Below, one piece after another: positions 2,955-18,909 of a DNA stretch of 25,212 nt. Within the stretch, counting starts at the first letter, position 1. Each line of letters starts with the position of its first letter. The notes under the pieces were generated by a model that saw nothing but the letters and a program-made list of their open reading frames with translations, ran no database searches and was not told the DNA's origin. Source of the stretch: a virus; IMG/VR virus record IMGVR_UViG_3300027759_000388, positions 1-25,212 of that record; one strand, 5' to 3'. Both the position numbers and the translations under genes were made by a program.

Positions 2955-3115
2955 TGAATTGGTATATGAGTACAACTGCCCTTGACAATATTACCATAAA
3001 GGTAACTTACACCTCATATTATATTGAGGGTGAAGAAGACATGATTGAATTAAATTTAGAAGAATTATCAGAACAACCTAATACAACAATTACAGATTAT
3101 GGCTTATCTTTATAG
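2954..3115 (+). CDS. 53-aa hypothetical protein overlapped by the homing endonuclease
   Basis: The start ATG overlaps the terminase stop by one base (TAATG), a coupling arrangement that favours real translation. The product begins MNWYMSTTALDNITIKVTYT, is acidic in the middle and ends TDYGLSL. Its last 17 bases overlap the start of the GIY-YIG gene in another frame. It is the only supported gene here that stops with TAG. No family is recognised. It may be an intact small gene or one whose 3' end was remade when the endonuclease arrived. The open frame is short, so existence rests on position and overlap. Confidence 0.6.
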   Translation: MNWYMSTTALDNITIKVTYTSYYIEGEEDMIELNLEELSEQPNTTITDYGLSL

Positions 3116-3641
3116 ACATATTAGATTAGATAAGAATGAACCATTCTATATTGGGATTGGTAGTGATTCTAAATATAAAAGAGCTAACTCTATTAATCCT
3201 AGAACTAAACATTGGAAAAACATTATTTCTAAAACAGAATATAGAGTTGATATAATTATGGATAACTTGTCTTGGGAAGAAGCATGTGAAAAAGAAAAAG
3301 AATTTATTGCTATTTATAAAAGAAATTGTGATGGTGGAATTCTTTGTAATTTAACTATTGGAGGTGAAGGAGCATATGGTAGAATCTTATCAGAAGAAAC
3401 TAAAAGTAAAATTTCTAAAAAAGTATCTGGTATAAATCATGGCATGTATGGAAAATCTCATAGTGAAGCTGCAAAAAATAAAATTATAGAAACAGCATCA
3501 AAAAAAGTAATTAATATAGAAACTAATCAGATATTTACCTCTATAAAAAATGCTGCTATTAGTATGAATATTAGACCTAATACACTAACAAGAAAACTTT
3601 CTGGAATTAGAAAGAATGATACTGTTTTTAAATTAATTTAA
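3099..3641 (+). CDS. GIY-YIG homing endonuclease with NUMOD3 and NUMOD1 motifs
   Basis: A 180-aa free-standing homing endonuclease. The GIY-YIG domain occupies about residues 1-90: YLYRHI at 3-8, FYIGIG at 16-21, a likely catalytic Arg at 28 and Glu at about 66. A NUMOD3-type DNA-binding motif follows (SEETKSKIS at 98-106, then GINHGMYGKSHS), and a NUMOD1-like helix-turn-helix (SIKNAAISMNIRPNTLTRKL, 148-167) ends the protein. This is the usual architecture for enzymes that nick or cut a cognate site and promote their own spread by recombination. The gene sits between terminase and portal, a typical niche in late genes, and is followed by A-rich spacing before the portal start. The target is probably the allele lacking the gene nearby. 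All key residues look intact, so it is probably active. Confidence 0.93.
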   Translation: MAYLYRHIRLDKNEPFYIGIGSDSKYKRANSINPRTKHWKNIISKTEYRVDIIMDNLSWEEACEKEKEFIAIYKRNCDGGILCNLTIGGEGAYGRILSEETKSKISKKVSGINHGMYGKSHSEAAKNKIIETASKKVINIETNQIFTSIKNAAISMNIRPNTLTRKLSGIRKNDTVFKLI

Positions 3642-7771: not shown

Positions 7772-9391
7772 ATGGCAACTCCAGTTTTAAACAACGGTAT
7801 ATTTCTGCGTGATACCAGCTACCAAGCTAGTTCACACGTAGATTCATATCACTTAGTAAACATGCTGAAAAGCAGTGAACCAATGGACTTAGGTCCAGTA
7901 GACATTTGGGCTATGGCTCAAAAAGTTGAAATGCCTCTTTACCAATTCTCTAGTTTTGGTGGTAAGAACGTTATCAATGTAGACAATGCTCGTGGAGAGT
8001 ACAAGTGGCAGGTTCCTGTTGCTCAAGATCTTCCTTACATTGTTACTGATATTGACTCTACCAATACTGTAAAAGGACAAGACGGTACTAACTTCCAAAT
8101 TAAATTGAACAAGCGTGTATTTGGTCATGGTGACATTGTTACCTATGATAAATATAACGGTTTAGAGATGTACATCACAGCTGATGATATTACTCCAACT
8201 GGTGATGGTTTTATCTACACAGTTCAATTAGTAAACAACAGCAATGGTGTTTCTTTGGATAACAAATATTTAGCATCTGGTACTAAAATGTTCCGTAAAG
8301 GTTCTGCTCGTGGTGAATACGGTGAGCGTTTCTCTGATATTGGACAATATGGTGCAGGTTTCCGTGAATTCTACAACTATGTAGGTGGAGCTGAAGCTCA
8401 CGTTCACTATTCTATCTCTTCTCGTGCAGATTTGATGTTGAAGGGTGGTTTAAATGCAGATGGTACTATTCCAGTAACTGAGATCTGGAGAAACTTTGAC
8501 AAGACTATGGATCCTTCTGTTACTAGTTTGGAATCTATGGTAGCTACTATGGGTAAAGATGCAGTTAAACGTGCATTTGACAATGGTAACTTGACACGTA
8601 CTTTCTTGACTACAATGGAAGCAGCTCACTTAACTAAAGTAGCTAATGACATTGAAACTTACTTAATGTGGGGACAAGGTGGTAAAATTAAACAAGATGG
8701 TCCAGATGATATTAGATTATCAGTGGGTCTTTGGAAACAGTTGGATAACAGCTTTAAGCGTGTATACAACAAATCTAGTTTCAACTTAGACTTGTTTAAA
8801 TCTGAGATTTATAACTTCTACTTAGGTAAAGTTGATTTCCAAGGTCCAGATCCTAAGCGTCAATTGATTGTACAAACCGGTATGGGTGGTATGAAATTGG
8901 TTAATGAAGCTATTAAGAAAGAAGCAATTCAATCTGGTATGCTTATTAATGCTCAAGAAATTGGAGCTATCACTGGTAAAGGTATGGACTTGAATTTTGG
9001 ATTTGCTTACACTAGTTATGTAATTCCTTTCTTGGCTAACGTTAAATTTGTACTTAATCCTGCATTTGATAACTTGCATACTAATGATATTGAAAATCCT
9101 TTAATTGATGGTTTCCCATTGAGTTCTTATAACTACATTATCTTTGATATCACAGATAACGTAAATGATAATATCTTCATGTTGAAATTATCTTGGGATA
9201 ATCAATTGAAATGGTTCTACCAAAATGGTACTATGGATTACATGGGACGTACTCAAGGCTTCCAAAGCTCTGGTCAGTTCAATGGATACCGTGTATACAT
9301 GAGCCAAACAATGCCTGCTATTTGGGTGAAAGATCCTACCAAGGTTCTCAAAATTGTTATGCGTAACCCTATCACTGGCGGTTCATTCTAA
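7772..9391 (+). CDS. major capsid protein
   Basis: A 539-aa protein, probably with the HK97 fold, forming the icosahedral shell. It follows terminase, portal and scaffold and has the size and mixed alpha/beta character of Bacteroidota phage capsid proteins. Residues 55-75 hold an MPLYQFSSFGGKN segment, 170-190 an FRKGSARGEYGERFSDIGQY segment, and the last third is beta-rich. Codon choice differs from neighbours: CGT for Arg, AAC and TTC are favoured, as expected of a very highly expressed gene. No N-terminal prodomain or cleavage site can be identified by eye. A stable hairpin lies 17 bases after the stop. The call rests on order, length and codon bias more than on a diagnostic motif. Confidence 0.85.
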   Translation: MATPVLNNGIFLRDTSYQASSHVDSYHLVNMLKSSEPMDLGPVDIWAMAQKVEMPLYQFSSFGGKNVINVDNARGEYKWQVPVAQDLPYIVTDIDSTNTVKGQDGTNFQIKLNKRVFGHGDIVTYDKYNGLEMYITADDITPTGDGFIYTVQLVNNSNGVSLDNKYLASGTKMFRKGSARGEYGERFSDIGQYGAGFREFYNYVGGAEAHVHYSISSRADLMLKGGLNADGTIPVTEIWRNFDKTMDPSVTSLESMVATMGKDAVKRAFDNGNLTRTFLTTMEAAHLTKVANDIETYLMWGQGGKIKQDGPDDIRLSVGLWKQLDNSFKRVYNKSSFNLDLFKSEIYNFYLGKVDFQGPDPKRQLIVQTGMGGMKLVNEAIKKEAIQSGMLINAQEIGAITGKGMDLNFGFAYTSYVIPFLANVKFVLNPAFDNLHTNDIENPLIDGFPLSSYNYIIFDITDNVNDNIFMLKLSWDNQLKWFYQNGTMDYMGRTQGFQSSGQFNGYRVYMSQTMPAIWVKDPTKVLKIVMRNPITGGSF

Positions 9392-9870: not shown

Positions 9871-11253
9871 ATGTCATTAGAAAGATTTATACCGTTGTCA
9901 CCTGATAAGTTTATTAGAAATAGTCAGGATTTTGAAGTTGCCAAATTTGGGCATCTTAATGCTATTGTTGAATATATCAATGGTAATAATGCAGCTGGAT
10001 TAAAATTATCTGGTGATGGTTTAATAGCAATCACATTAAAATCTATATTAGATTCTAATGGAAATACTACACCTTTACTATTATCTAGTACTTCTGTTAC
10101 TAATTATGGTGCTGGAGGAATTACAACTAACACAGCTTTTGGTCAAGAAGCTTTAATTGCAAATACCACAGGTGCTTATAATGTGGCTATTGGTGAAACT
10201 TCTATGTTTTCTAATACTACAGGGTTTTCTAATACGTCAGTTGGTGAAGCTTCATTATTTTCTAATACTACAGGTTATGAAAATACAGCTATAGGTGAAA
10301 GTGCATTGTATTCTAATACAACAGGATTAAGAAATACAGCAATAGGACTAACTGCTTTATTAAGTAATGCTACAGGTGTTCAAAATACAGCAATTGGTAG
10401 ATCATCTCAGAGATTAAATATTTCGGGAAATTATAATATTTCTGTAGGTAGCGATTCTTTATATAGTAATACTGTTGGAATAAGTAATATTGCTATTGGT
10501 AATGATTCATTATTTAATAATATTGTCTCTAATAATGTTGCAATAGGACATTTTGCTGGAAATGCAAATACTACAGGAACACTTACGGCTATTGGTTATT
10601 TAGCGTTACAAGGAAATACAACAGGTGTTCAAAATACTGCTGTAGGAAATCGTTCTCAAACTGCTGCGGGAATGACAGGTAGTGCTAATACTTCTTTAGG
10701 AGAACGTTCTTTGCAAAGTGTAACAAGTGGTAGTTCGAATATTGCTGTTGGATTTGAGGCATTGAAATTAAGTACAACAGGTTTTTATAACGTTGCAATT
10801 GGGGACATAGCATTACGTTCAAATACTACAGGTACAGGTAATACGGGAGTAGGTGCTTCTAGTTTACGTTTAAATCAAACAGGAACTGGTAATACAGCAT
10901 TAGGTTATTTATCATTAGAAAATAATACTAACTCTAATAACACAGCTCTTGGATACCGTAGTTTAAATGCTAATACGAGTGGTACTGCAAATATAGCAGT
11001 AGGTGTAGATTCTTTATCAAGTAATACTACAGCTAATGATAATACTGCTATAGGATATAATACTCAAACAAGTAATTTTAGTGGTTCAGTAATATTAGGA
11101 TCAGCAGCAACAGCAACAGCAAATAATCAATTTGTAGTAGGTAGTACAACAATAAATGCTGGTGCTATAGATACAGCAGCAGTTACACCTACAAAAAGAT
11201 GGAAAGTAAAAATTAATGGTGTAGATTATTATATTGCTTTACAACCAGCTTAA
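9871..11253 (+). CDS. fibre protein with YadA-head-like repeats and shared anchor motif
   Basis: A 460-aa probable trimeric fibre. Residues 1-37 carry an anchor motif, RFIPLSPD followed by QDFEVAKFGHLNAIVEYIN, seen again in the genes at 11621 and 12113. From about residue 85 to 415 there are some twenty imperfect units of about 14-16 residues built on NTTG-x-x-NTAIG-x-x-AL, the pattern of left-handed beta-roll heads of trimeric autotransporters such as YadA. A short globular end closes the protein (KRWKVKINGVDYYIAL). This suggests an elongated head or tail fibre exposing a repetitive trimeric shaft, attached by its N-terminus. No peptidase S74 chaperone or lectin signature is seen. Receptor binding is likely but not shown. 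Confidence 0.85.
   Translation: MSLERFIPLSPDKFIRNSQDFEVAKFGHLNAIVEYINGNNAAGLKLSGDGLIAITLKSILDSNGNTTPLLLSSTSVTNYGAGGITTNTAFGQEALIANTTGAYNVAIGETSMFSNTTGFSNTSVGEASLFSNTTGYENTAIGESALYSNTTGLRNTAIGLTALLSNATGVQNTAIGRSSQRLNISGNYNISVGSDSLYSNTVGISNIAIGNDSLFNNIVSNNVAIGHFAGNANTTGTLTAIGYLALQGNTTGVQNTAVGNRSQTAAGMTGSANTSLGERSLQSVTSGSSNIAVGFEALKLSTTGFYNVAIGDIALRSNTTGTGNTGVGASSLRLNQTGTGNTALGYLSLENNTNSNNTALGYRSLNANTSGTANIAVGVDSLSSNTTANDNTAIGYNTQTSNFSGSVILGSAATATANNQFVVGSTTINAGAIDTAAVTPTKRWKVKINGVDYYIALQPA
10120..11110 (+). repeat. coding tandem repeats of the YadA-head-like type
   Basis: Within the 9871 gene, degenerate 42-48-base units encode NTTG/NTAIG repeats. DNA words such as AATACTACAGG and AATACAGC recur at regular spacing. 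Such arrays can lengthen or shorten by recombination between units, changing fibre length. Confidence 0.8.
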
Positions 11254-11277
11254 TAAATAAAATAAATAAAATAAATT

Positions 11278-11604
11278 ATGACAACATATAATTGGACAAT
11301 CACAAATCTTTATACTAAAACTGTAGACGGATTACAAGATTATGTAGTAAATGCTATGTACAATGTTACTGGAGTAGATGGTGAATTTTCTGCATCTATT
11401 GATAACTTTTCAATCTTTACTGTAAAAGAAGGATCTGAATTTATTCCTTATTCTGAGCTAACTCAAGATATTGTTCTTGACTGGATTAAAGAAGGATTAG
11501 GTGAAAATGGTTTAATTTCTATTACTACAAATATTGATGGACAAATAGAGTCACAAAAAAATCCACCAATAACTCCACAAAATACTCCTTTACCTTGGAT
11601 ATAA
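11278..11604 (+). CDS. small phage protein, DUF7936-like
   Basis: A 108-aa protein with the pattern WTITNLYTK near the start, then EFIPYSELTQDIVLDWI (about 56-72) and a C-terminus with QKNPP and LPWI. That order matches a small phage family I remember as DUF7936, found widely in tailed phages near structural genes; the name is from memory and the function is not known to me. It lies between two fibre genes with 17-25-base A/T-rich spacers, so co-expression with the fibres and a role as a fibre-associated or assembly protein are reasonable guesses. No membrane segment or catalytic motif is visible. Confidence 0.8.
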   Translation: MTTYNWTITNLYTKTVDGLQDYVVNAMYNVTGVDGEFSASIDNFSIFTVKEGSEFIPYSELTQDIVLDWIKEGLGENGLISITTNIDGQIESQKNPPITPQNTPLPWI

Positions 11605-11620
11605 ATAAAAAATAAATAAA

Positions 11621-12046
11621 ATGATTAATAAATTTACTCCGTTATCTCCTGATCCATTTTTGAATAATGATCAGGACATGTCATTGGCCAAATTTGGTCA
11701 CATTAATGCTATTGTTGATGAAGTTAATAAAGTAACCGGTAATACTGCAGTTGTAACACAAACTGTAGGAATTAGCAGTGCAGTAACTATTGATAGTTAT
11801 GCTGGTGTAATTACTACCGTGTCAGCTACTACTGTTGCTGGATCTAATGTAGCTTTTACTGTAAATAATAGTAAAGTTACTTCTGCATCAAAAGTATTAT
11901 TAACTCCAGTACATACAGGAGCAGGTATTCCAGTATTTACATTAGATTCTATTAGTAATGGAAGTTTTGTAATTAGGATTTATAATGTGCATGGTACTAA
12001 TGCCTTTAATAATATTTTTAAAATTAGTTTTCTAGTATTAGATTAA
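11621..12046 (+). CDS. short fibre/virion appendage protein with shared anchor motif
   Basis: A 141-aa protein whose first 38 residues (KFTPLSPD, then QDMSLAKFGHINAIV) match the anchor of the proteins at 9871 and 12113. The remainder is a short beta-rich domain with VTTVSATTVAG and a terminal FVIRIYNVHGTNAFNNIFKI, looking like a compact beta-sandwich without a repetitive shaft. It is therefore probably a short knob-like appendage using the same docking site as the longer fibres, or a plug for that site. The stop is TAA, and a structured 66-base spacer follows. No enzyme motif is visible. Confidence 0.82.
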   Translation: MINKFTPLSPDPFLNNDQDMSLAKFGHINAIVDEVNKVTGNTAVVTQTVGISSAVTIDSYAGVITTVSATTVAGSNVAFTVNNSKVTSASKVLLTPVHTGAGIPVFTLDSISNGSFVIRIYNVHGTNAFNNIFKISFLVLD

Positions 12047-12053
12047 AAAATTA

Positions 12054-12096
12054 ACCCGGTAATACGTTTTTAAAGAGCTCGTAACTCTTATCGGGT
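12054..12096 (+). promoter_or_regulatory. structured intergenic RNA upstream of the 12113 fibre gene
   Basis: Arms ACCCGGTAA (12054-12062) and TTATCGGGT (12088-12096) pair with one G-U wobble, enclosing an inner AAGAG/CTCTT hairpin with loop CTCGTAA that competes for the last outer bases. No T-run follows, and the start codon is 17 bases downstream, so it could act as a terminator-like processing site or a translational control element. The loop shares GCTCGTA with the hairpin at 9408. Confidence 0.4.
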
Positions 12097-12112
12097 ACTA
12101 ATAATAAATAAA

Positions 12113-13948
12113 ATGGCATTACAAAGATTTATACCGACCTCTCCTGATGTAAATATACGCAGTGGACAAGACCTTGAAGGAGCTAGATTTGGTCACCTTA
12201 ATGCTATTGTTGAATACATCAATAATAATACAGTATTACCAGCAGGATTAAACGGCTATGTACAGTTTAATGACAATAATGCATTAGGTGGTGATCCCGG
12301 ATTATTTTGGGATAATATCAATAAAAGATTAGGGGTTGGTACTACTACGCCTTTAGGTATTTTACACCTTAAAAGCACTGCTGCAACGACTAGGATGGTC
12401 ATTGATGGAGATGCTGGACAAAGTAAAATTATTACTTATAGAACAGCTGGATTACAACGTTTTGACTTATACGTTAATAATATTGCTGAAACTGGTTCTA
12501 ATGCTGGTAGCAATTTTGCGATAAGCGCTTATAGCGATGCTGGTACGCTTTTAAATACGCCTTTATCTATTAATAGAGCTAGTGGTCAAGTAACTTTTGA
12601 TGAAAGAGTAAAGCTAGAATCTGATTCTACAGTAACTACACAAACAAGTGCAGTAATACAATCATCTACAGCAAATGCAAGTTTAGTCATAGCTCCAAAT
12701 GGTACGGGTGCATTGATAGCTAATATTCCAGATGGAACTATAACGGGTGGAAATGCACGAGGACAATATGCTGTTGATTTGCAAATGATTAGAGATTCTA
12801 ATTTAAAAGTAGCTGGAGGAGCTAAATCAGTTATTACTGGTGGTCAATGGAATGGAATTGATATAAATTCAGGTTTAGCTTTTATAGGTGGTGGTTATTT
12901 TAATAGAATAGATAATGCTGGTTATGCTGTTCTTGTAGGAGGTTCTTCAAATTATATTAATGGAGGTTCTGGATTTTTTCATACAATTGTTGGAGGAAGT
13001 GCAAATACAACTGGTGGAGGAGGAGGTGGTTCTTTTATTGGTGGTGGTTTAAATAATAATGCAACTGGTGCTGGTGCTGGAACTATTTCTGGAGGTGCAA
13101 ACAACACAGCTTCTTCAAATTACAGTACAATCTCAGGCGGTCAATCCAACACAGCATCTACTGGCACACATACAACTGTTGTAGGTGGGCAAAGTAATGT
13201 TGCAAGTGGGCAGCATTCTGTAGCTGGTGGTTTAAGCAATACGGCAAGCGGGGCTAAATCTTTTTGTTTTGGCAATCTTAATGCTTCAAGTGGAATAGGT
13301 GTTTTTAATTTTAATGGACAGCCAGAAGGAAGTACTATTACTGGAAACTATGCAGTTAATTTAAGCGGTGGAGCTACAACAATCAGTGCAGAAAGTGGAT
13401 TTTCAACTGGGTACAATAATAATGTTTCAGCTTTAGGCGCTACTGCTTTTGGTTCTTTTGTTAGATCATATTTAAGAGGTCAATTTGCCACTAATAATGC
13501 TTTTATGTTTGGTAGTGATCGAGGTAGTTCACAACAATCAAATTTAACAGCTAGCAAACAAGCCGCACTTGCTTCAAATGCAACAACAGTTTTATCTTTG
13601 GACGGAACAGGAGTAACTGCTTTAATAATTCCAGAGGGCAATAACAGACTATGGGCAGTAAAAATAACCGCTACAGCATTTGTTTCTGTTGCTGGTGGTA
13701 CATTAGTACTAGGAGATTCTTATATGGGCGAATACACGTTACTATTTAAAAAAGTAGGGGGTGTAAGTTCTGTAGTAGGAGTATCTTCTGGTAATATTAT
13801 ATTTGATGCAAATATGGGTTCTGCTGCATTTACATTTGCTGCTGGTGCATCACAAGATTTACAAATCACATTTAAAGCTCCAACTACAGCAAGTGCAACA
13901 ACATTCCGTTGTGTAGCTAGGGTGGAATTAACAGAAGTAGCTTATTAA
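12113..13948 (+). CDS. long fibre protein with anchor, repeat shaft and beta-sandwich tip
   Basis: A 611-aa probable trimeric fibre. Order of parts: anchor motif (1-38; RFIPTSPD, GARFGHLNAIVEYIN); a phage-fibre linker (NGYVQFNDNNALGGD, RLGVGTTTP, about 44-80); a beta-rich domain to about 205; the conserved module GGNARGQYAVDLQMIR (about 212-227); a Gly/Asn/Ser-rich shaft with units of the GG-x-x-N-x-A-S-G type (230-400); and a C-terminal domain from LSLDGTGV (about 490) to the end, homologous to that of the next gene. The shaft resembles YadA/haemagglutinin beta-rolls. The tip is a good candidate for receptor contact. No self-cleaving chaperone is present. Confidence 0.88.
   Translation: MALQRFIPTSPDVNIRSGQDLEGARFGHLNAIVEYINNNTVLPAGLNGYVQFNDNNALGGDPGLFWDNINKRLGVGTTTPLGILHLKSTAATTRMVIDGDAGQSKIITYRTAGLQRFDLYVNNIAETGSNAGSNFAISAYSDAGTLLNTPLSINRASGQVTFDERVKLESDSTVTTQTSAVIQSSTANASLVIAPNGTGALIANIPDGTITGGNARGQYAVDLQMIRDSNLKVAGGAKSVITGGQWNGIDINSGLAFIGGGYFNRIDNAGYAVLVGGSSNYINGGSGFFHTIVGGSANTTGGGGGGSFIGGGLNNNATGAGAGTISGGANNTASSNYSTISGGQSNTASTGTHTTVVGGQSNVASGQHSVAGGLSNTASGAKSFCFGNLNASSGIGVFNFNGQPEGSTITGNYAVNLSGGATTISAESGFSTGYNNNVSALGATAFGSFVRSYLRGQFATNNAFMFGSDRGSSQQSNLTASKQAALASNATTVLSLDGTGVTALIIPEGNNRLWAVKITATAFVSVAGGTLVLGDSYMGEYTLLFKKVGGVSSVVGVSSGNIIFDANMGSAAFTFAAGASQDLQITFKAPTTASATTFRCVARVELTEVAY
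13173..13192 (+). repeat. 20-base direct repeat shared by tandem fibre genes (copy 1)
   Basis: These 20 bases are identical to 14363-14382 in the next gene and lie in matching shaft units of the two paralogues. They mark recent common origin or gene conversion and could serve as a recombination point between the two fibres. Confidence 0.75.
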
Positions 13949-13959
13949 TAAATAAAGAA

Positions 13960-15186
13960 ATGGGAAAAAAATTCGTACTAGACCAAGAAGATAGCACAGC
14001 CGCTGGTGGTAATCCTAGAGGTAACCAGTCTGTAGATTTGCAAATGTCAAGAAGTAATGCAAATGAAATTGCTGGTAATACACAAGCTGTTGTTCTAGGA
14101 GGTTCTGGAAATAAAGCAACCGCAGTACAATCTGTTGTTGTTGGTGGACAAAATAATAGTGCTGGAGCATTACAATCTTTTATAGGAGGAGGAAATTTAA
14201 ATACTACTTCTGGTGGTACAGAAAGTACTATTGTAGGTGGAACTTTAAATAATATGACTGGAACTTACGGATTTATTGGTGGTGGTTTGCAAAATACAGT
14301 ATCATCAACTCATTCTGTAGTTTCTGGCGGTCAAGGTAACACTGCATCAACAAACACACATGCAACTGTTGTAGGTGGGCAATCAAATACTGCAAGTGGA
14401 CCACGTGCAATTGTTTTAGGTGGTGGAAGTAATACATCAAGTGGTACAGATTCTATTGCTGGTGTAAATGGTAGTATTGCAAGTGGTACATGGGCTATTG
14501 CTTTGGGTTATCAAAATCTTTCAAATGCAACAGCAAGTTTTTCAAGTGGTAGAGAAGCTTATGCTATTGGAGCAGGTGCTATTGCTATGGGGAATGGTAA
14601 TCCAGTTGCATTAAATACAAATGCTATTGCAATTGGTAGTTCTTCAAGAGCTGAACAAGTAAATTCAGTTGCATTAGGTGGGGGTTCAGTTTCTAGTATG
14701 TATAATCAATTTTCTATTCTTGGAGCTGGTGGAGTGGGTCAAGCATCAGATTTAAAATCTTATAGAATAGCTAGTTTATTAACTGGTGGAACAACTATGT
14801 TATCTTTAGATGGTAGTGGGGTTTCATATTTTATTGTTCCTTCAAGTAATAATCAAGCATATAATGTTCAAGTTAATTGGGTAGCTGTTGTAACTGCAAT
14901 TACGGGAACTGCAACTGGTATAAGTGTAGGAGATGTTATAACTTCTGTAGACCTTTTAGGATTTAAAAGAGTAGGAGGTACTTCTAGTGCTTCTGCGCAT
15001 ACTTCAGCAGCAACTAAATTAATGGTAACAACACCAGCTGCCTATGCTGCCTGTGCAATTAATTATACAGCTGGAGCATCTCAAGAAATGTTATTAACAT
15101 TTACTGGACCTACTTTTGTGGGTGGAGGTAGTGTAACTATGTCAATAGTTGCTAAAGTAGAAATTACTCAAGTATTATGGACTTAA
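13960..15186 (+). CDS. anchorless fibre paralogue (distal fibre or second receptor-binding protein)
   Basis: A 408-aa protein that aligns with the second half of the preceding fibre but lacks the N-terminal anchor. It begins close to the shared module (GGNPRGNQSVDLQMSR, about 17-32), continues with a repeat shaft rich in VVGGQ-N-x-A-S-G units, and ends in a paralogous tip domain (from LSLDGSGV, about 280, to 408; FKRVGG and TAGASQEM match FKKVGG and AAGASQDL). A 20-base stretch is identical between the two genes. It starts 11 bases after the previous stop. Without its own anchor it may join the preceding fibre as a distal segment or heteromer, or be a swapped tip cassette. It does not look broken: the frame is complete with a normal start. 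Confidence 0.85.
   Translation: MGKKFVLDQEDSTAAGGNPRGNQSVDLQMSRSNANEIAGNTQAVVLGGSGNKATAVQSVVVGGQNNSAGALQSFIGGGNLNTTSGGTESTIVGGTLNNMTGTYGFIGGGLQNTVSSTHSVVSGGQGNTASTNTHATVVGGQSNTASGPRAIVLGGGSNTSSGTDSIAGVNGSIASGTWAIALGYQNLSNATASFSSGREAYAIGAGAIAMGNGNPVALNTNAIAIGSSSRAEQVNSVALGGGSVSSMYNQFSILGAGGVGQASDLKSYRIASLLTGGTTMLSLDGSGVSYFIVPSSNNQAYNVQVNWVAVVTAITGTATGISVGDVITSVDLLGFKRVGGTSSASAHTSAATKLMVTTPAAYAACAINYTAGASQEMLLTFTGPTFVGGGSVTMSIVAKVEITQVLWT
14363..14382 (+). repeat. 20-base direct repeat shared by tandem fibre genes (copy 2)
   Basis: Identical to 13173-13192. Surrounding bases also align, with codon-level differences (ACACATGCAACT against ACACATACAACT). Recombination here would fuse the anchor of the first fibre to the tip of the second. 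Confidence 0.75.
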
Positions 15187-16823: not shown

Positions 16824-17525
16824 ATGAACAACTCTATACTACAACTAAAGATTAAGCAAAGACTTAATAAATTGGCTTCTAATGACTATGAGAATTTAGA
16901 GGGGTGGCAAATTATTGAAGCTTTTAATAAGGCTCAAATAGAGTGGGTTAGAAGACAATTACATGCTGGTAATGTTTATAGAGAAGGAGATGAAGGATCT
17001 AAAAGAAGGATTGATGATTTACAATTACTTCTTTTACAAGTTCCATTATTTGGAACACAAACTTTATTATACTTTGAAAGTAATCTTTTACCAACAGACT
17101 ATTTAGAATATAAAAGAGTTAGTACATTTGCTAAAACTGAATGTTGTAACCCTGAAACCATGACTGTTTATTTAGCTGAAGAAGCTAATGTAGATGAATT
17201 ATTAGATGATCAATTTAGAACTCCAAGTTATGAATGGGGTGAAACATTCTGTACATTAATGGGTAATAAAATTAGGATCTACACAAATAATCAATTTGAT
17301 GTAGTTAACCCTAATCTTACTTATTATAGAAAACCTAGATATATTCAAATCATTAATGTAGTAGATCCATATACTGGTTTAGTATCACCAACTGATGTTA
17401 CTTGTGAATTTAAAGATGATATTGTAGAATTACTAATAGATGAAGCCGCAAGTATTATTGCTGGTGATATTGAATCGGTTAATCAGTTTAGCCGTGGTAC
17501 TCAAAATTCTGAAAGAAATAATTAA
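16824..17525 (+). CDS. candidate head-tail connector / ring protein
   Basis: A 233-aa protein, helical at the N-terminus (WQIIEAFNKAQIEWVRRQLHAG, about 28-49 as a block), with a charged DDLQLLLLQVPL section, a beta-rich middle (NLLPTDYLEYKRVSTFAK, NKIRIYTNNQF, LTYYRKPRYIQI) and a C-terminal helix (DDIVELLIDEAASIIAGDIES). The helix, beta-sandwich, helix layout with an ILID.AA-type ending is what head-completion or adaptor proteins under the portal look like. I associate close relatives with the ring proteins of crAss-like phages. The order after portal and capsid, and immediately before other tail-side genes, supports this. Which ring it would be cannot be told from sequence. Confidence 0.65.
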   Translation: MNNSILQLKIKQRLNKLASNDYENLEGWQIIEAFNKAQIEWVRRQLHAGNVYREGDEGSKRRIDDLQLLLLQVPLFGTQTLLYFESNLLPTDYLEYKRVSTFAKTECCNPETMTVYLAEEANVDELLDDQFRTPSYEWGETFCTLMGNKIRIYTNNQFDVVNPNLTYYRKPRYIQIINVVDPYTGLVSPTDVTCEFKDDIVELLIDEAASIIAGDIESVNQFSRGTQNSERNN

Positions 17526-17536
17526 AAAATAATAAG

Positions 17537-18481
17537 ATGACAAATTTATCCCCCTTTGCTTTAAAAGATGCTACTGGTAATATAGTACCAGGATCATTAG
17601 TTTTATCTCAACAACTACCTTCCCCAGGAAATTGGTTTCTTGTAGCTGAAGGTGTGCAAAAAGCTTTTCCAACAAATCCTGAAACATATGATAGGACAGT
17701 AAGAACTACATATGCTTCTGCAGTATCTGCAGAAAGATTTGGTACTTCTGCTAAAAATTTTATTTTTCAGAGATATGGTTATCAACCTTCTAACATTGTA
17801 TTATCAAACTCTATTTGTTCTGATGATGTTGATGGTCCAGTATATGTTGATATTAATAATATTGGCCAAAATCCAGCATCAGTAAATCAGTTCTTAGGAG
17901 CTTTTATGTCTGGTGGTTTATCTGGATATCCTCATACAGGAGTATTAGGATTACAAGCTTGGGGTAGCCATGCTACAACAACAACCAATGGTGCTTTATT
18001 TTTAATCAATACTCCTCACATTGGTATCTCACAAGATGGTACTGTAGGAAGGATTATACGTAGAGGTAAATCTGGTAATGCTGGAGACAATACTTGTGGT
18101 GCAGTAGCAACAGCTATTGTATGGGTTGCTGCTAATGCTGTTGCCCCAGTAGCTGCAAATTTTCCAAATGACTATCAGAACTATGTTTTATGTAGTATAC
18201 TATTTCCATTTAAAGCAGCTTTAGCAGCTATTCCATTATATGGAGATAAAATGGTTTTTGCTACAGAAAAGATTAGGTTAGCTGGAGATGCATTTTTAAC
18301 TGGTGCTAGTGGTATTGTTACCCCAAATGTTCCAGCTAATACAAATGTATTTTATTGCAGTGGTATCTTTATTAATACAGATGATCAATACAATGCTTAT
18401 ATTAGTGTTACTTCATTTAAGAAGTATAACTCTGTAGGTGGTTGGGTTGATTTAACCTCATTATTTTTAGCTAGTCTATAA
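17537..18481 (+). CDS. LCIB-like beta-carbonic anhydrase homologue
   Basis: A 314-aa protein resembling the LCIB/LCIC family of zinc beta-type carbonic anhydrases (CO2 + H2O to bicarbonate), first known from algal carbon concentration. Candidate zinc ligands are C94 in NSICSDD (a C-x-D motif like that of beta-carbonic anhydrases), H161 in TPHIGISQDGTVG (159-171) and C187 in NTCGA. The family's Gly-rich loop appears as SGGLSGYPHTG (125-135), with GSHA at 143-146 and RRGK at 175-178, all in family order. No signal peptide or membrane span is seen. The region after about 200 is less family-like. It lies between the candidate connector and a Dps-like gene whose start overlaps its stop by one base (TAATG). 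Family membership is likely; catalysis, and whether it is packaged in the virion, are not shown. Confidence 0.8.
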   Translation: MTNLSPFALKDATGNIVPGSLVLSQQLPSPGNWFLVAEGVQKAFPTNPETYDRTVRTTYASAVSAERFGTSAKNFIFQRYGYQPSNIVLSNSICSDDVDGPVYVDINNIGQNPASVNQFLGAFMSGGLSGYPHTGVLGLQAWGSHATTTTNGALFLINTPHIGISQDGTVGRIIRRGKSGNAGDNTCGAVATAIVWVAANAVAPVAANFPNDYQNYVLCSILFPFKAALAAIPLYGDKMVFATEKIRLAGDAFLTGASGIVTPNVPANTNVFYCSGIFINTDDQYNAYISVTSFKKYNSVGGWVDLTSLFLASL

Positions 18482-18909
18482 TGATAAACAAACTACAACG
18501 CCCCGGTTTTCCTAGCGGTTCTGCAAATAGTGTAGACAAAGCCACATCTGACTTAGTTGTTGAGATGATGAATGCAGGAACTAAATTACATATAACACAT
18601 TTATTAGTAACAGGTGTTGGTTCATATGCTGCTCACAAAGCTCTTAATGATATTTATGATGCTCTTCCTGATCATGCTGATACTATTGCAGAAGCATATC
18701 AAGGAGCTTCAGAAAAATTACTTTCTTATGGGGAAGTAGCTCTACCTACTATTAAAACAAAAGATGAAGCTGTTGCTTATCTACGTTCTTTGTATGCTAA
18801 AATAAACAATTTACAGAGTATGATGCCTTATTCAGAGATAACTAATGAGTTAGATAATGTTAAGTCTAGTATTAATTCTGCTAAATATAAATTAATTTTC
18901 TTGCAATAA
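18481..18909 (+). CDS. Dps-like / ferritin-fold protein (DUF5856-like)
   Basis: A 142-aa helical protein. Spacing of metal-site residues follows Dps: H40, then H52 (12 later), N56 where Dps has Asp, then D67 and E71 (D-x-x-x-E). Text around them, HLLVTG and AHKALNDIYDAL, mirrors the Dps HW-x-V-x-G and H-x-x-L-D-x-h-Y pattern. Dps proteins oxidise Fe(II) with peroxide and form 12-subunit shells; phage relatives (I recall DUF5856) have no settled role. The start overlaps the carbonic anhydrase stop, indicating coupled translation. D57 next to N56 might replace the missing Asp. The N-terminal tail is short and only mildly charged, so DNA binding as in E. coli Dps is not obvious. Confidence 0.75.
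   Translation: MINKLQRPGFPSGSANSVDKATSDLVVEMMNAGTKLHITHLLVTGVGSYAAHKALNDIYDALPDHADTIAEAYQGASEKLLSYGEVALPTIKTKDEAVAYLRSLYAKINNLQSMMPYSEITNELDNVKSSINSAKYKLIFLQ

Follow-up and report, generated by a model that had tools for sequence, protein, structure and literature searches.

A virus-derived stretch of 25,212 nucleotides (IMG/VR virus record IMGVR_UViG_3300027759_000388, positions 1 to 25,212; hereafter, the window) encodes, at positions 17,537 to 18,481 of its plus strand, a homologue of the LCIB-type beta-carbonic anhydrases (CAs). Enzymes of this type are known from algal CO2-concentrating systems, and algae have supplied the family members studied best. The open reading frame begins with ATG, ends with TAA and specifies a protein of 314 aa. 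On balance, we lean towards regarding this protein as an accessory component of the virion, in which a short N-terminal module, inferred to be an anchor, carries a displayed and probably active LCIB-type CA domain; neither enzymatic activity nor location in the particle has been shown.

The assignment to the LCIB family, first proposed in an initial annotation of the window, is upheld by profile comparison and by the predicted fold. The Pfam profile PF18599 (LCIB_C_CA) matches aa 74-295 (positions 17,756 to 18,421, plus strand) with an E-value of 6.8e-29 and 101.2 bits, against a curated cut-off of 25, and phmmer comparison with the PDB retrieves LCIB-family chains only, namely 6kfs (E 2e-14), 9vzj, PtLCIB4 (E 2e-11), CrLCIC and CrLCIB. 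The motifs on which the annotation had relied are each in place and follow one another in the LCIB order: C94-S-D96, SGGLSGYPHTG, GSH145A, TPH161IGISQDGTVG, R175R176GK and C187GA. AlphaFold2 modelling gave a pLDDT of 75.9 from a 27-sequence alignment, and a monomer model with a pLDDT of 83.9 and a pTM of 0.79 from a 65-sequence alignment. Foldseek comparison with the PDB returned eight chains below E 1e-3, every one of the LCIB family, with PtLCIB4 (E 5.9e-15, TM 0.84) and 6kfs (E 2e-14, TM 0.83) followed by CrLCIC (TM 0.71) and CrLCIB (TM 0.66-0.69). Of the two checks suggested with the annotation, the profile search is therefore highly significant and the structure prediction yields an LCIB-like fold, the geometry of the C94, H161 and C187 ligands lying outside what was shown. 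Taken together, profile, alignment and model confirm a true LCIB-type CA homologue, far above chance, which nevertheless shares only about 22-25% identity with the solved members of the family (PF18599; PtLCIB4 5b5y, 6kfs, CrLCIB 5k5w and CrLCIC 5b5x). Canonical beta-CAs such as CafB and psCA3 share with it a distant fold relation and a Cys2His zinc site, but they come next in the Foldseek list only at E 0.03 and above, and they lack the CxDxR motif.

By its gene content, the window belongs to a crAss-like phage (Crassvirales). Upstream of the CA gene, the terminase (phrog_6681), the P22/crAss-like portal (phrog_6547) and the crAss-type major capsid protein that serves as a lineage marker (PF23898, E 6.3e-31; positions 7,772 to 9,391, plus strand) stand in their usual order. 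Directly upstream of the CA gene lies a gene for a tail-ring-like virion protein (phrog_29507, E 2.8e-11; 16,824 to 17,525, plus strand) with weak hhalign similarity to the crAss001 ring proteins. Between the capsid and this ring-like gene, an array of adhesin-like fibre genes (9,871 to 15,186) shows matches to phrog_6002 and phrog_4636 ('virion structural', 'tail spike') and to a YadA head repeat. The description of the CA gene as embedded among connector and structural genes is thus accurate, and this position in the late block, near the ring-like protein, the capsid and the adhesin-like fibres, speaks for display on the particle. Comparison of the window late genes with crAss001 gp33-gp44 gave weak matches only. 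Directly downstream, a Dps-like gene (DUF5856/phrog_858; 18,481 to 18,909, plus strand) adjoins the ring-like gene in relatives without a CA gene, and it is kept beside that gene across this crAss group whether the CA gene is present or absent. Two further features of the window may be recorded: a NUMOD3/GIY-YIG-like homing endonuclease gene (3,099 to 3,641) lies between the terminase and the portal, and the genes at 9,871, 11,621 and 12,113 have a common N-terminal stretch, 'F.PLSPD....QD...AKFGHLNAIV', which is a second candidate attachment module.

The host can be approached only through related phages. The terminase (TerL) has its relatives mostly in crAss-like and Bacteroidota phages. The best GenBank match of the capsid by score is that of Leptolyngbya phage Lbo-JY46 (28.5% identity over the full length), while Cellulophaga phages match about half of the window capsid. 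Lbo-JY46, a cyanobacterial phage, also carries a large tRNA array. The host is probably a member of the Bacteroidota, with indirect support only, and a cyanobacterium is not excluded; the carrier phages as a whole probably infect aquatic Bacteroidota. The connection drawn in the initial annotation to CO2-requiring Bacteroidota is still an inference.

Relatives of the CA gene are widespread among uncultured viruses. Successive scans of IMG/VR recovered 11, then 102, then at least 143 loci, on contigs of up to 272 kb, and PF18599 scored above its cut-off in all 30 viral records tested. When 26 contigs were typed by their capsid gene, 12 had the crAss capsid and eight a T4-type Gp23, which in one member shares 57.5% identity with the Gp23 of Flavobacterium phage immuto; since the two never occurred on the same contig, the CA domain is carried by two unrelated groups of tailed phages, which on these marker genes are the Crassvirales and a T4-like group related to a Flavobacterium phage. 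The remark that no described phage example was known withstood five different queries of 50,697 GenBank phage records and searches of PHROGs, of BFVD by fold (nothing reached E 1e-3) and of the literature, none of which yielded a phage LCIB-type CA; in one literature match on homooligomeric phage proteins, carbonic anhydrase was merely a size marker. A plasmid search returned nothing, and scans of bacterial and archaeal genomes found no cellular relatives, with DNA patterns that were too specific to exclude them. Two adjacent CA copies each occur in one genome and in one shorter contig (L090, 9,599 to 11,668, and L088, 9,710 to 11,843) as divergent LCIB-type genes of the CSDD and CADD types; by analogy with LCIB and LCIC, the products of such a pair may assemble into a heteromer. 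In two other contigs (L087, 9,848 to 11,959, and L089, 9,851 to 11,962), the CA domain belongs to a 703-aa protein whose long C-terminal portion has an unknown fold.

Within each phage group, the CA gene is an exception. Among 38 close crAss relatives that have the whole capsid-to-c27 block and a capsid at least 82% identical, two carry it, and so do two of the 45 T4-like relatives that span 9.5 kb or more. A 93% identical copy occurs in the same gene context in one other contig (L002). In L137 and L144, the ring-like gene is followed at once by the DUF5856 gene and the flanks match the window at both exact gene borders, which identifies the CA gene as a clean one-gene insertion. In other members, it stands before the ring-like gene, so the insertion site varies. 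As judged from these comparisons, the CA gene is an accessory gene that is gained and lost as a unit.

The CA domain (aa ~72-314) is constant, whereas the part that precedes it varies between phages. In the window protein, this part begins with module A (aa ~1-48; positions 17,537 to 17,680, plus strand; 'LxPxALKD..NIVPGSLVL..PxPGxWxxV'), the proposed tether to the virion. Four types were defined: A, the crAss type ('VPGSLVL..PxxGxW'), B ('LTLRKTKGSALTxxEMDGNFEYF'), C ('TNNIEPVSGN') and D ('IRITSxNLSG..IPFNNI..YPYGTYEL'), and further N-terminal types occur in L087/L089 and in L088/L090. HMMs of modules A, B, C and D matched 22, 4, 2 and 7 ORFs without a CA domain, respectively, in the same set of phage contigs. 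Module A is followed by BspA-type leucine-rich repeats in L028 (E 5.5e-26) and by a Fib_succ_major domain in L034 (E 6e-36), others of these ORFs contain long TTTT linkers, and a 776-aa protein with repeats of the fibre type begins with module B. By these profile matches, the CA domain is therefore preceded by at least four different kinds of N-terminal module, each of them also found on non-CA proteins, an arrangement that is new here. Placing the modules on the tree of CA domains takes seven changes, the least possible number being six (L083, mis-trimmed in the domain tree, was left out of the reading). Tree and module sharing together give the pattern of exchangeable tips on attachment modules, as far as it can be read from sequence. 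As a separate observation, Fib_succ_major and BspA leucine-rich-repeat domains are found on phage attachment modules in L034 (11,002 to 12,042), L080 (5,957 to 7,174) and L028 (6,867 to 8,066).

Known fibres and enzymes of phages offer partial parallels. The head fibres of crAss001 are anchored by short N-terminal segments, aa 1-38 in the gp21 trimer and aa 1-58 in the gp29 dimer (PMC10172136). Like the window protein, gp21 and gp29 combine a short N-terminal anchor, of a length similar to module A, with an exposed C-terminal part, and a dimeric anchor such as that of gp29 would suit a dimeric CA. In contrast, they have no enzyme domain, and hhalign detects no sequence similarity between either protein and modules A, B or D (probability below 1%). 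Module A has no match in GenBank phages either, so the inference of attachment to the virion rests on the company that the modules keep. Phage depolymerases and tailspike hydrolases are likewise enzyme domains borne on attachment modules and swapped between phages, but they attack host polymers, and a CO2-hydrating domain in such a position is undescribed in the sources searched.

The modules also bear on the foremost alternative, in which the protein is a soluble auxiliary metabolic enzyme, made late together with the structural genes and free in the cytoplasm, that would supply bicarbonate for the carboxylations of fatty-acid, pyrimidine and arginine synthesis or buffer the pH, its N-terminal module being a folding or oligomerisation part only. 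Such a role would agree with the conserved active site described below and with an accessory distribution typical of auxiliary metabolic genes, and in one jumbo T4-like group the CA gene is found beside a DNA polymerase B gene with no clear run of structural genes. An ordinary cytoplasmic enzyme would, however, have no need of modules that the same phages also place on non-enzymatic adhesin-like, leucine-rich-repeat and fibre-repeat proteins. We consider a soluble enzyme unlikely, while granting it a real chance.

The predicted active site retains the CxD motif, the second His, the zinc-binding His, the Arg of RRG and the zinc-binding Cys of the LCIB family. C94 (17,816 to 17,818; this and the following codons on the plus strand) is a predicted zinc ligand that aligns to the Cys of CSD in PtLCIB4 and 6kfs; D96 (17,822 to 17,824), the predicted catalytic Asp, aligns to the Asp of the cellular CSDE; H161 (18,017 to 18,019), also a predicted zinc ligand, aligns to the His of G[PS]HVG in the solved LCIBs; and C187 (18,095 to 18,097), the predicted second Cys ligand, aligns to the second Cys of CCGSA. 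H145 (17,969 to 17,971) and R175 (18,059 to 18,061), additions to the initial annotation, belong to the conserved set as well. In the alignment to 5b5y/5b5z, H145 falls on H88 of PtLCIB4, the position of the H88A mutant, and by alignment it is the equivalent of His162/161 of CrLCIB/LCIC. R175, in the RRG motif that cellular RRGR retains, is probably the equivalent of Arg194/193, an inference from spacing. None of these residues varies in 81 viral sequences, nor in a 65-sequence viral alignment that takes in relatives down to 36% identity (36-40%) with the window protein. Their codons do vary synonymously (CAT in 36 and CAC in 37 sequences for H145; AGA in 54, CGT in 18 and CGA in one for R175), and dN/dS lies between 0.15 and 0.35 in close pairs of phage CA genes, distant pairs being unreliable because dS is saturated. 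It follows that selection, not recent descent, keeps these residues constant; by these codon-level measures, they are under strict purifying selection.

Apart from being phage-encoded and joined to phage N-terminal modules, the phage proteins show one constant difference from the cellular members: the Arg found four residues after the Asp (CSDEVNR) in the three cellular LCIBs compared is replaced by Gly or Ala in every one of the 81 phage sequences. This Arg is not known to be required for membership of the LCIB family or for activity. R172 of the phage protein, considered as a substitute, was ruled out, as it is Tyr in L087/L089 and varied elsewhere while R175 is invariant. A review of LCIB structures reports that Chlamydomonas LCIB has no detectable activity although its zinc site is built, and explains the inactivity of CrLCIB/LCIC by disordered His162/161 and Arg194/193, the latter being the active-site Arg reported for these proteins (PMC5876011). 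The phage model has low confidence next to the active site, at aa 100-109 and 126-130. The missing Arg, the inactive Chlamydomonas homologue and these poorly modelled segments count against the reading that we favour.

It is conceivable that the LCIB fold has been reused without catalysis as the receptor- or ligand-binding tip of a fibre, perhaps for bicarbonate or a surface glycan. A role as a noncatalytic barrier has been proposed for CrLCIB itself, the modules are of the fibre type, and both the loss of the CxDxxxR Arg and the silence of Chlamydomonas LCIB despite an intact zinc site would fit. Yet receptor-binding tips usually diversify fastest, while here, at 36-40% identity, the zinc and active-site residues are the most conserved, as they are in enzymes; a tip without catalysis appears to us improbable, somewhat more so than the soluble enzyme. 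These two are the main alternatives, and neither can be excluded on present evidence. A displayed hydrolase of the beta-CA fold acting on another small substrate, COS or CS2, deserves mention. Some canonical beta-CAs are COS or CS2 hydrolases, the fold having given rise to both. An altered specificity is made possible by the changed residue that follows the CxD motif, but neither sequence nor genomic context in the window points to sulfur metabolism, and such an activity seems very improbable. Contaminating or mis-assembled algal DNA, which the algal origin of the best-studied family members might suggest, is already refuted by the independent contigs, with at least 143 independent viral loci, the 93% identical copy of L002 in the same context and the fit of the L137/L144 empty site to the exact gene borders, and it retains a negligible chance.

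The reading that we favour, an anchored and displayed CA domain, would operate as follows. The short N-terminal module is inferred to attach the protein to the particle, on which the C-terminal LCIB-type domain would be displayed, possibly on head or collar fibres and as a dimer of the LCIB type. The domain would bind zinc and catalyse CO2 + H2O <-> HCO3- + H+. Faster exchange between CO2 and bicarbonate would then set pH and inorganic carbon locally, around the particle or at its contact with a respiring host cell, and this altered environment could favour adsorption or entry; a further, secondary gain late in infection, in the cytoplasm, is possible. Zinc binding, catalysis, dimerisation, location in the particle and benefit to the phage are all inferred, and the absence of particle proteomics, of a particle structure and of activity data for the phage protein weighs against this reading. 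The initial annotation had offered two readings, an enzyme acting on CO2 and pH and a fold reused as a virion protein. The evidence favours their merger, given a conserved active site and a CA domain joined to modules shared with fibre- and adhesin-like proteins.

The LCIB family was already known; what is new, with no precedent found in the sources searched, is its presence in phages, its occurrence in two phage lineages and its combination with swappable modules. The domain is widespread in uncultured phages, with at least 143 IMG/VR loci, and keeps its catalytic residues on modules of the fibre and adhesin type. That two unrelated groups of tailed phages display a working zinc CA on their particles as an exchangeable tip, and exploit CO2/bicarbonate chemistry (local pH or bicarbonate) where they meet a respiring host cell for adsorption or entry, is a tentative proposal to which we give a little less than an even chance. 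The phage set adds to the family LCIB enzymes remote from the algal ones. If displayed and active, the protein would make these the first virus particles with CO2 chemistry, as far as searched, and would give phages a way to act on inorganic carbon and pH around their hosts.
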